64,000 nt of DNA from Streptomyces sp. YIM 121038 (lineage in GTDB: Bacteria; Actinomycetota; Actinomycetes; Streptomycetales; Streptomycetaceae): the NCBI RefSeq assembly GCF_006088715.1, contig NZ_CP030771.1:9546001-9610000 (forward strand). Direction: 5' to 3'. The position numbers and the translations under genes were made by a program. Positions 13,690-17,217 of the stretch are shown one piece after another; positions within the stretch are counted from its first letter, which is position 1, and each line of letters begins with the position of its first letter. The notes beneath the pieces were generated by a model. That model saw only the letters and a list, made by a program, of their open reading frames with translations, had not been told where the DNA came from and did no database searches.

Positions 13690-13923
13690 ATGCAGCAGAG
13701 CAACACCACCACCAAGCCGGGCCGCAGGCGGGCCGGGCGGTTCGCCGTCGCCGTCGCGGCGGTCGGGGTCCTCGTGGGCGGCGGCATCGCCGCGGCGGGC
13801 TCGGCCAGCGCCTCCACCTTCTGCGGAGCGACGGGGGACGGTGGCTACGGGTGCGTGATCGACCAGGGGGACGGGACGTTCAAGATGGTCAACAGCAACG
13901 GGGACATCGTCTACAACTGGTGA
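13690..13923 (+). CDS. small secreted peptide precursor, two cysteines
   Basis: A 77-residue precursor. Residues 1-41 form a signal with an Arg-rich n-region (PGRRRAGRF) and a clear hydrophobic core (AVAVAAVGVLVGGGIAAAGS), ending SASA. The mature peptide is about 36 residues, STFCGATGDGGYGCVIDQGD followed by a Thr/Asn-rich end closing in YNW. The two Cys, 10 apart, could form one disulfide. A GAGGGAG ribosome site precedes the ATG. It stands between two minus-strand genes and ends at a terminator. No family is recognised. Confidence 0.65.
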   Translation: MQQSNTTTKPGRRRAGRFAVAVAAVGVLVGGGIAAAGSASASTFCGATGDGGYGCVIDQGDGTFKMVNSNGDIVYNW

Positions 13924-14054: not shown

Positions 14055-15782
14055 CTAGGGGCGGTGGCAGATGTAAAGAGGGCCCGCCCAGTGCTCGCAG
14101 ACCGGGCCGGTGGTGGGCGCCGGTGTCGGCTCGGGGGGAGTGGTGGGCTCGACCGGGGTCGGCGTCGGAGTCGGTGTGGGCTCCGGGGGCAGGGTGGGTG
14201 TGGGCGTCGGGGTGGGTGTGGGTATGGGCTCCGGGGGTTGCGTGGGGGTCGGCGTCGGGGTGGGTGTGGGCGTAGGCGACGGCGAGGGAGGCTCTGTCGG
14301 GGTCGGGGTCGGGGCCGGGGTGGGAGTGGGCGTCGGTGTTGGAGCCAGCGCTGGCGTCGGTGTCGGAGGCAGCGGCGGCGTTGGCGTCGGAGCCAGCGGC
14401 GGCTCCGGCGGGCGCGGCGGCTGCGGTCGCGTCACAGGCGGGACAGGCTGCGGCGGCTCCGGCCGCGCGGCCGGAACCGGGGCCGGGCCCTGGGGCTGCT
14501 CGGCGGGCCGGTCGGCGGGCCGCTCGGGCCGCGCCTGCGGAGGGACCGGCGCCTCGGGCCGCCCCGGTGCCGCGCCCCCTGGTGCGTTCGGCTTCGCCGC
14601 GGTACCCGGCCGGGGCTCGGGCACGGTGATGTCCGGCGCCCCGTCGGACGCCTTCTCCGGCTCCCCGACCGGCGCGTCCGCGGGACGGGACGCCGCGCCG
14701 CTCTCCGCCGTGACGGCGCGGGCGGGGGTCGCCGAGTGTCCCGGGCCGCTCAGGACCAGGCCCGCGGCGACGGCGGCCCCGGCCACCGTCGTGCCGACGG
14801 CCCCGACGACGGCCACGGGCAGCTTCCCGCCCGCCGTGAGGGCGTGGCGCAGGCCGTGCAGCAGCCCGCCGGAGCCGGGCGCGCTCCCGCCGGACGACGC
14901 GGCGGCCGCGGCCCCGGCGCCCGCTCCGGCCGCGAGCGGCGCCAGGAACTTGCCCGCGCCCCCGAGGACGAACAGGAGCAGGGCGGGCCCGACCAGGGCG
15001 GGCAGCCGGTGGTTGGCGCGGGTCAGCAGTGCGAGGCGGCCCCGGCAGTCGGGGCAGCCGTCGAGGTGGGCGACCAGCGTCTCGGACTGCCGGGGCGTGG
15101 CCTCGCCGCGCACGTGCGCGGGCATGCGGTCCCAGTGGGTCTCGCAGGCCGGGTTCTCGGGCGCACCGGGGTGGGCGCGCAGGAAGGCCTGGCGCATGCC
15201 CTCGCGGGCCCGGTGCAGCAGCACCGCCGTGGCGCCGCGGCCCGCGCCGATGCTCCGGCCGATCGCGTCGAGCGGCTGGCCCTCCGCCTCGGCGAGCCAC
15301 AGCGCCTTCACCCAGCGCTCGGGCAGCTGGCCCAGGACCCGCGTCAGCAGGTCGACGGAGGACACCCGGGCCGCCGGGTCGCCCTCGCCGTCGGCGACGG
15401 TGGTGACGTCGACGACCTCGGGCGCCCACGGGGCCTGCGGGTCGTGCGGGGTCTCCTTCGCGGCGGCCCGCCCGACCGACACCGCGAGGTGCCGCACGGT
15501 CGTCATGAGGTACGCCGCCACGTTCTCGATCTCGTGCCCGGCGGCCAGGCGCCGCCAGACGCGGAAGTGCGCCTCGGCGACCAGGTCGTCGGCGACCCAG
15601 GCGTTGCCGGTCAGTGAGCGCGCGTACGCGACGAGGCGCGGATGCTCGGCTTCGTAGACGCGCGCGTACGCGGCGGTCGCCGCCCCGGAGGCGGCGGGAA
15701 CGGCCTCGGGCGGGCCGTCGGCGGGGACCTCAGGGGGGACGTCGGCAGGGACGTCGGATATGACAGGACACTCCTGTCCCAC
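14055..15782 (-). CDS. ECF sigma factor fused to zinc-finger, membrane and Pro/Thr-rich wall domain
   Basis: A 575-residue multidomain protein. Residues about 40-105 are sigma region 2 ([20 protein letters not shown], then [16 protein letters not shown]). Residues about 145-205 are region 4 ([20 protein letters not shown], then [13 protein letters not shown]). Next is an anti-sigma-like zinc motif HLDGCPDC (H239, C243, C246), hydrophobic segments at about 260-295 and 321-345, and a long extracytoplasmic stalk of PTPTPT/PEP repeats (about 440-558) ending in a Cys-bounded tail [14 protein letters not shown]. Sigma and anti-sigma-like functions thus share one chain tethered to the membrane, so release by proteolysis may be needed. 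The GTG start overlaps an inverted repeat. Confidence 0.85.
15762..15778. promoter_or_regulatory. inverted repeat at the translation start of the membrane sigma factor
   Basis: GACAGGA (15762-15768) and TCCTGTC (15772-15778) are perfect arms around CAC, within the first codons after the GTG. It could be an operator or an mRNA hairpin limiting translation. Confidence 0.35.
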
Positions 15783-15843
15783 TGCGGGGGTGGTGGGTGA
15801 GGTCGAAAGACTAGGTGAGAAATATCGGACATATCAGGGATAG

Positions 15844-15857
15844 GTGACGCAGGTCAC
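15844..15857. promoter_or_regulatory. Crp-like box upstream of the SsgA-like gene
   Basis: GTGACGCAGGTCAC fits the pattern GTG-N6-GNCAC described for Streptomyces Crp exactly. It lies 98 nt before the SsgA-like start and 62 nt upstream of the divergent sigma-factor start, so it could serve either gene. Confidence 0.45.
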
Positions 15858-15941
15858 AGTGAACTCTTCATGCACTCCCGTAATGAGGGCACCCGCTACC
15901 GGGTCGTAGGGGTAAGGAACCGGCAGAAGTGGAGCTCGACC

Positions 15942-16355
15942 ATGGCCGTCACGCTCGAACAGTCCGCCCGCGCTCGTCTGATCACCCCCGAGGGCCGTGA
16001 GCGTCCGATCTCCGTGACGTTGCGCTATGCGGCGAGCAATCCGCTGGCGGTGCAGGTGACCTTTCCGTCGGAGGTGTCCCTGGATGGCGCCGAGGTCACC
16101 TGGGTCTTCGCCCGCCGCCTGCTCGAGGACGGGCTGAGCGCCCCGGCGGGCACGGGGGACGTGCACGTCTGGCCCTGCGGGCGCGCGCGCACCGTCCTGG
16201 AGTTCCACGCCCCGCACGGCCTCGCGCTCGTGCAGTTCGACCGGGGCGCGCTGCGGCGCTTTCTGATGCGCACCTACGCCGTGGTGGGGGCGGAGGGCGA
16301 GGAGGTGGGGCTCGACCTGGACCGCGGTCTGACGGAACTCCTCGGCGGAGTCTGA
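15942..16355 (+). CDS. SsgA-like protein (SALP), sporulation/cell-division regulator
   Basis: A 137-residue protein with the SALP core: SVTLRYAASNPLAVQVTFPS, then WVFARRLLEDGL, GTGDVHVWPCGR and a late FLMRTYAVVGAEGEE. SALPs occur only in morphologically complex actinomycetes and steer septum placement and spore-wall remodelling through interactions with FtsZ-recruiting factors and autolysins. Length is close to that of SsgB, but the N-terminus differs, so I do not name a member. The ATG at 15942 has GGAG 7 nt upstream; the longer frame from 15870 is not needed. A Crp-like box and a terminator flank the gene, which is monocistronic. Confidence 0.9.
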   Translation: MAVTLEQSARARLITPEGRERPISVTLRYAASNPLAVQVTFPSEVSLDGAEVTWVFARRLLEDGLSAPAGTGDVHVWPCGRARTVLEFHAPHGLALVQFDRGALRRFLMRTYAVVGAEGEEVGLDLDRGLTELLGGV

Positions 16356-16399: not shown

Positions 16400-16418
16400 G
16401 TAGGTTAGGCTTGCCTAA
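16400..16418. promoter_or_regulatory. iron box (DmdR/IdeR-type) for the siderophore-interacting protein
   Basis: GTAGGTTAGGCTTGCCTAA matches the 19-bp consensus TTAGGTTAGGCTAACCTAA at 16 positions. It ends 67 nt before the downstream start codon, so that gene should be derepressed in low iron. Confidence 0.85.
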
Positions 16419-16485
16419 CTCGATCACGTGCGCGCGTTGTTCCACGTGAAACGGGCGTATCAGGATCTCAGGGGAGGAGACCGGG

Positions 16486-17217
16486 ATGGGCCACGGCTGG
16501 GAAGGCGTCGTCCTCAAGCTGTTCCGAGGCAAGGACTTCCGGTTCACCGTGACCGGTGCCGAGGACGTGACGGAGCACTACCGTCGCCTCCACGTCACCG
16601 ACGGCGGCATGCTCGCGCAGACCGGTGTGCACCCGACGATGTGGGTGCGGCTGTGGTTCGACAACGCGGGCAAACCCCATCAGCGCGCCTACACCCTCGT
16701 CGACCCCGATCCCGAGGCGGGCACGTTCAGCCTGGAGTTCGCGCTGCACGACGGCTGTGCGAGCGAGTGGGCGCGCAAGGCCGGGCCCGGCGACACCATC
16801 GAGGCGACCGTGCAGGGCACCGGCTTCGACCTGCCGCAGCCCGAGCCGTCGCGGCTGCTCGTCATCGGTGACGCGGCGTCGCTGCCCGCGGTGAACTCCC
16901 TCCTCGACGCGATGCCGGGCATCCCCGCGACGATCTGGTTCGAGACGCAGCACGCCTCGGACCGCGAACTGCCCCTGGGGGTCGACCCGGCACTCCACGA
17001 CGTGCACTGGATCGAACGGCAGCCCTCGGGCGCCGAGCTGGTGCGGCAGGCCGAGGCGGGTCTCGCCGCGGCCGTCGAGGGCACCGCCGACGCCTATGTG
17101 TGGATCACCTGCGACACGACGACCACCCGCACGCTCGCCGCGTACGTACGCAAGGAACTGGCGCTGCCCAAGAACCGCGTGCACGCGCTCGGTTACTGGC
17201 GGCCGGGACGCGGCTGA
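16486..17217 (+). CDS. siderophore-interacting protein (FAD/NAD(P)H ferric-siderophore reductase)
   Basis: A 243-residue protein of the SIP family. The FAD-binding barrel has the motif RAYTLVDPDPEAGTFSLEFA (about residues 66-85, with the RxYT-type FAD contact). The C-terminal SIP domain has RLLVIGDAASLPAVNSLLDA and ends in RKELALPKNRVHALGYWRPG. SIPs reduce ferric siderophores in the cytosol to release iron. AGGAG lies 6 nt before the ATG and a DmdR-type iron box lies upstream, agreeing with iron control. No siderophore synthesis or uptake genes are adjacent, so it serves systems encoded elsewhere. Confidence 0.92.
   Translation: MGHGWEGVVLKLFRGKDFRFTVTGAEDVTEHYRRLHVTDGGMLAQTGVHPTMWVRLWFDNAGKPHQRAYTLVDPDPEAGTFSLEFALHDGCASEWARKAGPGDTIEATVQGTGFDLPQPEPSRLLVIGDAASLPAVNSLLDAMPGIPATIWFETQHASDRELPLGVDPALHDVHWIERQPSGAELVRQAEAGLAAAVEGTADAYVWITCDTTTTRTLAAYVRKELALPKNRVHALGYWRPGRG

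Follow-up and report, generated by a model that had tools for sequence, protein, structure and literature searches.

A predicted one-chain, membrane-tethered ECF sigma factor with a Pro-rich stalk, encoded head to head with an SsgA-like gene in Streptomyces

Introduction

Can one protein of Streptomyces hold an ECF sigma factor, its inhibitor, a membrane anchor and a surface sensor, and if so, what might it sense and which gene might it serve? The question is raised by a 575-codon open reading frame in a 64,000-nucleotide stretch of the Streptomyces sp. YIM 121038 genome, which we call the window (Table 1). A preliminary description read this frame as sigma factor, anti-sigma factor and external sensor merged in one protein that could be released by proteolysis. 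The layout is already known and a release mechanism has already been proposed for relatives. The fused ECF52 protein SCO4117 is described in PMC5826349, whose account includes truncation data and proposes a proteolytic cascade or a conformational change for ECF52, and the parts of PMC8999054 dealing with fusions cover ECF48, ECF52 and ECF53. The merged reading stands as to sigma factor, finger, anchor and stalk in one chain, but neither the layout nor the idea of proteolytic release is new. We asked what this protein adds.

Results

Sigma factor and zinc finger share one reading frame

A scan of named genomes gave 93 relatives. The best 80, picked on sigma similarity only, represent 79 distinct loci, all in Streptomyces; the closest to the window is L009, with 82% identity over the aligned part. 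Since the finger motif follows the sigma regions in frame in 78 of the 79 loci, the fusion is not an artefact of annotation, which the preliminary description had named as one way for its reading to fail. The family is not universal in the genus: it occurred in five of 31 genomes drawn, the window genome counted, and in 13 of 81 in a larger, overlapping draw.

Within the window protein, sigma region 2 and zf-HC2 scored above the Pfam cut-offs, region 4 scored below its cut-off, and Pfam gave no match C-terminal of residue 247. AlphaFold2, run on residues 1-350 with 76 aligned sequences, predicted confident helices within residues 30-109, 136-203 and 211-274. Confidence was low for the 110-130 linker and for most of the region past residue ~275 (mean pLDDT 75.2), and the pTM of 0.52 is too low to fix the interface between sigma and anti-sigma parts. 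In fold searches, the first two helical blocks matched solved structures of ECF sigma region 2 and region 4; we used single-domain rows alone, as the two-domain rows had rmsd >10. The protein thus has regions 2 and 4 only, in an ECF-like fold, and both lie in one chain as first described.

Whole-model fold searches were dominated by the sigma domains and uninformative on the anti-sigma part. The finger region has the ZAS motif, H-x3-C-x2-C with an upstream ligand, and all four predicted zinc ligands are invariant across the 76 aligned sequences, in keeping with the anti-sigma-like HxxxCxxC motif noted at the outset. Zinc anti-sigma factors were also its best, though weak, sequence matches in the PDB, with RslA, ChrR (twice) and RsiW filling four of five rows (E 0.09-0.19, not significant). 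The finger would therefore be expected to bind zinc and may inhibit the sigma factor to which it is joined. Together, sequence, conservation and structure prediction support a chain that joins a sigma factor, an anti-sigma-like zinc finger, a membrane anchor and a stalk.

Table 1. Features of the fused sigma gene, its divergent neighbour and the region between them (window positions)
Feature	Position	Strand	Basis
Called ORF, 575 aa, fused sigma/anti-sigma/stalk protein	14055..15782	-	ORF call, Pfam, conservation
Sigma region 2, residues 43-102	15477..15656	-	PF04542; model residues 31-116 match ECF region 2 structures
Sigma region 4, residues 145-194	15201..15350	-	PF08281 below cut-off; fold match to 3hug_E
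zf-HC2, putative zinc anti-sigma domain, residues 213-247	15042..15146	-	Pfam; C213, H239, C243, C246
First hydrophobic stretch, residues 260-278, GGAGK inside	14949..15005	-	Hydropathy; probably not a span
Second hydrophobic stretch, residues 325-343	14754..14810	-	Hydropathy, insertion energy; likely sole membrane span
Pro-rich stalk, residues 344-561, PT/PEP-rich at its end	14100..14753	-	Sequence
Two-Cys tip, C562 to C572	14067..14099	-	Two-Cys ends also in some relatives
Codon at conserved start position, ATA in window	15759..15761	-	Upstream alignment; conserved GGAG just upstream
Second dyad TTTGTCA-N7-TGACAAA, degenerate copy, 5 of 14 mismatches	15802..15822	-	Conserved in relatives
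Dyad GTGACGCAGGTCAC, matches Streptomyces Crp consensus GTG(N)6GNCAC	15844..15857	.	Exact sequence match
CGTAAT, -10-like element of SsgA-like gene	15879..15884	+	Nearly fixed distance from dyad
Divergent SsgA-like protein, 137 aa, nearest to SsgD	15942..16355	+	PF04686; NF052496 below cut-off

A single membrane span would place the stalk outside

The preliminary description combined two membrane helices with an outer stalk. These are incompatible: a chain that starts from a cytoplasmic sigma factor and crosses the membrane twice would have its stalk back in the cytoplasm. One alternative to an external sensor is therefore that both hydrophobic stretches cross the membrane as a hairpin and that the stalk is a disordered cytoplasmic tail. 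Two stretches do exceed the Kyte-Doolittle threshold in 71 of 80 rows, the window included (best 80 of 93 relatives), and the review PMC8999054, where it treats such fusions, gives one to two helices. However, on a flat Hessa 2005 insertion scale, the mean energy is 0.56 for stretch 2 versus 3.77 for stretch 1 (79 proteins, window + 78), and in 61 of these 79 proteins a Lys lies inside stretch 1. The loop joining the stretches is positive, with means of 2.5 Lys + Arg and 0.1 Asp + Glu and at least two Lys or Arg in 77 of the 79, and the tail after stretch 2 is acidic on average (8.7 Lys + Arg, 32.5 Asp + Glu). Because stretch 2 is the better span, stretch 1 contains Lys, and the charges agree, one span (residues 325-343) with the N terminus inside and the C terminus outside is the better model. 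Stretch 1 overlaps the end of a helix that AlphaFold2 predicts confidently (244-274), and perhaps belongs to the anti-sigma domain.

Relatives also argue against a cytoplasmic tail. An ECF52-type paralogue in the window genome has a similar membrane region, yet its C-terminal end is an NPCBM domain, and in other relatives a Big_9 or DUF642 domain closes the chain. All three are normally extracellular domains, and their presence at the same end favours a stalk outside. We consider the cytoplasmic tail unlikely.

The stalk itself and the Cys-bounded tail are present as first described. The stalk has ~218 residues; at an estimated 0.31 nm per residue, its 120-residue Pro/Thr stretch would, if extended, span some 35-40 nm, about the depth of a thick wall. 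It could reach into the peptidoglycan and might sense the state of the wall, and the linked SsgA-like gene points to the cell wall as well. The DNA encoding stalk and tail (14067-14753) includes imperfect 24/48-bp tandem repeats. One relative (P0001) seems to lose frame within the Pro/Thr tail, and L118 and L119 likewise have tails that seem to be out of frame. With regard to O-mannosylation of the stalk, the main text of the glycoproteome study of S. coelicolor (PMC6593405) makes no mention of SCO4117.

The stalk may end in a disulphide-closed tip

Sixty-five of the best 80 of 93 relatives are complete proteins. Fourteen of these end in a two-Cys motif, making this tip a minority form; 49 lack the motif but carry one or more Cys within their final 60 residues, and two have none. 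The pattern C-x(1-3)-W-x-G-P-x-x-[IVM]-C fits ten of the 14 two-Cys ends, and four are looser (L061, L062, L079, L085). Two proteins from another genus of the same taxonomic family (L115, L116) end in TCITLGGLTVCWTR and TCWTLSGLSLCWNR. The occurrence of two-Cys ends in and beyond Streptomyces suggests an old hairpin, presumably closed by a disulphide.

A second alternative is that the protein responds to thiol redox state and not to wall contact, either through its tail Cys (as a hairpin disulphide, or as linked dimers in single-Cys relatives) or through the finger. A Cys within the final 60 residues is common to 63 of the 65 complete proteins, and 11 of the 14 two-Cys proteins have no Cys besides the tip pair and the three of the finger. 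But the position and context of the tail Cys differ widely among relatives, and the one recurring gene found among those looked for, the sigma gene's neighbours in the window, is SsgA-like, not a redox gene. We judge a redox switch improbable.

An SsgA-like gene accompanies the sigma gene

The divergent gene belongs to the SsgA family (PF04686, 102.5 bits). Its score with the SsgD model NF052496 was 175.6 bits, short of the cut-off of 185, and another gene of the window genome (L091) passed that model with 229.5 bits. The genome has seven SsgA-family genes, the window gene included; one of the seven lies on a second contig (G000 contig 2, 47502-47795).

In 72 of the 79 loci (E <=1e-8; best 80 of 93 relatives) the sigma gene has a divergent SsgA-like gene as its neighbour; none was found at E 1e-3 in the other seven (L019, L041, L044, L052, L067, L069 and L079). 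Among 12 other family-bearing genomes of the larger genus draw, several of which are the same genomes as named loci, it was present and divergent in ten and missing at L124 and L130. Five of six window-family loci outside the genus also have it, L120 being the exception, and none of seven other fused sigma loci of other genera does at E 1e-4.

In a tree, 69 of 73 neighbouring SsgA-like proteins formed one group apart from six paralogues (support 0.62), with L062, L077, L084 and L085 outside. When the tree was rooted on L088, the group containing every neighbour also included L091 and L094 (support 0.71). One old partnership between the sigma and SsgA-like genes is likely, the tree being no proof of it. 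A literature search covering work other than the ECF classification studies with gene-context analysis turned up no paper that we recognised as describing an ECF sigma/SsgA-like pairing, which may already be published.

Two other features flank the pair. The sequence TAGGTTAGGCTTGCCTAAC (16401-16425, + strand) lies just upstream of a gene for a siderophore-interacting protein (16486-17217, PF04954) and resembles the actinobacterial DmdR/IdeR iron box. Convergent with the sigma gene is a small ORF (13690-13923, + strand) with a signal-peptide-like start and Cys in its mature part, for which we found no Pfam family.

Conserved candidate control elements lie between the two genes

We compared the 260-base regions upstream of the sigma gene (window + 78, best 80 of 93 relatives). 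GTGA-N6-TCAC occurs in 59 of the 79, against 13 occurrences in 824,474 bases of flanking DNA from the same loci, mostly coding (0.004 per 260 bases). Either this dyad or GTG(N)6GNCAC is present in 73 of the 79. GTG(N)6GNCAC is given as the strong S. coelicolor Crp consensus in PMC10033298, citing Gao 2012; in that paper's account of EMSA, purified Streptomyces Crp failed to bind, and the corynebacterial homologue GlxR was used instead. We regard the intergenic dyad as a putative Crp-type site.

CGTAAT lies on the SsgA-like side of the dyad. Of the 72 regions with an SsgA-like gene 69 contain it, compared with 0 of 7 regions without (Fisher p 4e-8, relatedness ignored). The dyad is kept in five of the seven regions without the gene, where those of L041 and L079 lie farther from the assigned start. 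Since CGTAAT tracks the SsgA-like gene and the dyad persists without it, the former is probably part of the promoter of the SsgA-like gene, whereas the latter probably acts on the sigma gene as well. Spacing between the two elements is nearly constant, at 27 or 26 bases between the starts of ATTACG and GTGA in 48 of 52 pairs, and the combination at matching spacing occurs once in the 11.1-Mb genome. The dyad centre lies ~28 bases upstream of CGTAAT, presumably close to where Crp sits in class II activation. The second dyad, which overlies a TANNNT element 5' of the sigma start, was found with at most three of 14 mismatches in 59 of the 79 regions versus 0 of 79 in one mononucleotide shuffle, the motif having been derived from the same regions in which it was counted.

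The conserved start position reads ATA in the window strain

An alignment of 69 upstream regions revealed a conserved GGAG, with ATG at one position in the 16 relatives displayed. At that position (15761-15759) the window reads ATA. The called GTG at 15782 sits upstream of the conserved ribosome-binding region and is doubtful as a start. Thus, the window protein probably begins seven codons downstream of the called GTG, at an unusual start codon, or else little of it is made in this strain. That the gene is poorly translated or decaying in this strain, with little function here whatever the family does, would accord with the ATA, the upstream GTG and the five mismatches in the second dyad, but the frame is intact over 575 codons to the conserved tip, the Crp-type dyad and CGTAAT are retained and L009 is close, and we see only a slim chance of it.

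The family is distinct from ECF52

Like ECF52/SCO4117, the window protein has an ECF sigma factor, zinc finger, membrane region and Pro-rich extension in the same order, with 31-37% identity to ECF52-like matches in genus genomes over at most 350 residues. Unlike ECF52, it lacks a carbohydrate-binding module and has a small tip in its place. According to the gene-context account in PMC5826349, SCO4117 adjoins the regulator gene atrA in most species, S. avermitilis excepted. The paralogue in the window genome, a second fused protein with 35% identity and an NPCBM end (E 9.8e-32), adjoins a TetR-family gene (PF00440) and a pyridine-nucleotide oxidoreductase gene; we used this TetR-family gene as the query for atrA-like genes, so named from its position.

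At ten ECF52-type loci (the window genome's own, five from other Streptomyces and four from other genera), both an atrA-like gene and NPCBM were present in 10/10 and an SsgA-like gene in 0/10; nine of these loci span ~4 kb, so the last count means none close by. At the window-family loci, an atrA-like gene and NPCBM were each found in 0/79 (best 80 of 93 relatives). These absences, and the NPCBM paralogue in the same genome, rule out that the window protein is the SCO4117 orthologue. In the 31-genome draw, matches with 31-37% identity turned up in 28 genomes; the window genome's own match and five others were checked for NPCBM.

ECF53 (reference WP_030276194.1) is similar by description: the entry in PMC8999054 gives an actinobacterial fused sigma factor with a zinc finger, one to two helices and expected proteolytic regulation. 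Some ECF52 and ECF53 proteins have glycosyl hydrolase or carbohydrate-binding domains, as summarised in the review PMC10766802; Pfam found neither in the window protein. The present analysis adds a distinct family that has a tip of its own, a strong gene pairing and conserved control sites, and possible identity with ECF53 caps any claim to novelty.

Fused sigma factors of seven loci in other genera (L134-L140) end in Big_9 (two), DUF642 (three) or no Pfam domain (two). With Big_9, DUF642, NPCBM and hairpin ends on the same base, this looks like a modular receptor class in which a common sigma/finger/stalk base would carry exchangeable tips.

Two further systems bear comparison. In IutY of Pseudomonas putida (ECF243), sigma factor and membrane anti-sigma factor form one chain, and regulated intramembrane proteolysis is reported in the passage on it in PMC8999054. 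Compared by description, IutY and the window protein have the one-chain arrangement in common, and iron-siderophore surface signalling is IutY's. The envelope-stress factor sigma-E is not known to be a fused protein. It positively controls ssgD in S. coelicolor, where wall antibiotics induce ssgD, as stated in the relevant passages of PMC10771440 and PMC3123327. The window locus is similar in tying an ECF sigma factor to an SsgD-type protein and wall stress (as in the PMC10771440 account) and different in that its SsgA-like gene and sigma gene are divergently transcribed and another gene of the genome matches SsgD better.

Discussion

We propose, as the probable though by no means certain answer, that the protein is a one-piece, membrane-tethered and self-inhibited ECF sigma factor whose stalk senses the envelope from outside and which is freed after a change there. 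Sigma regions 2 and 4 would lie in the cytoplasm, with the zinc finger and the helix that follows serving as an anti-sigma domain within the same chain. A single transmembrane helix would lead to the stalk of roughly 220 residues outside, and the small Cys-closed hairpin at its end would touch or report on the cell envelope. Wall damage or a developmental wall transition could cause cleavage or rearrangement near the membrane, freeing the sigma factor from its own anti-sigma domain to transcribe its targets. This release step is modelled on the ECF52 proposal as set out in PMC5826349 and on IutY as outlined in PMC8999054. The divergent SsgD-like gene shares the control region with the sigma gene and probably also its physiological role, in the synthesis of wall and spore wall; both genes are probably under the control of a Crp-type regulator. 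Against this explanation we count the low pTM, the scores of Pfam region 4 and SsgD below cut-off, the non-significant PDB matches of the finger, the minority standing of the two-Cys tip, the loci that lack an SsgA-like gene, and the ATA start codon and degenerate second dyad in the window.

More tentatively, and with the odds against it, the family may be a separate ECF lineage of wall gauges with a disulphide-hairpin stalk tip, dedicated to a head-to-head SsgD-type gene, gated by Crp and part of a modular class of receptors with interchangeable tips. Most of what is known about fused sigma/anti-sigma receptors with this layout comes from a single studied protein, SCO4117. The family described here has a compact tip and, in the recurrent SsgA-like neighbour, a candidate partner gene with conserved promoter elements, which make the signal and the targets of a stalked sigma factor directly testable. 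It would connect the sensing of the envelope with the SsgA-like proteins, which place wall synthesis in Streptomyces.
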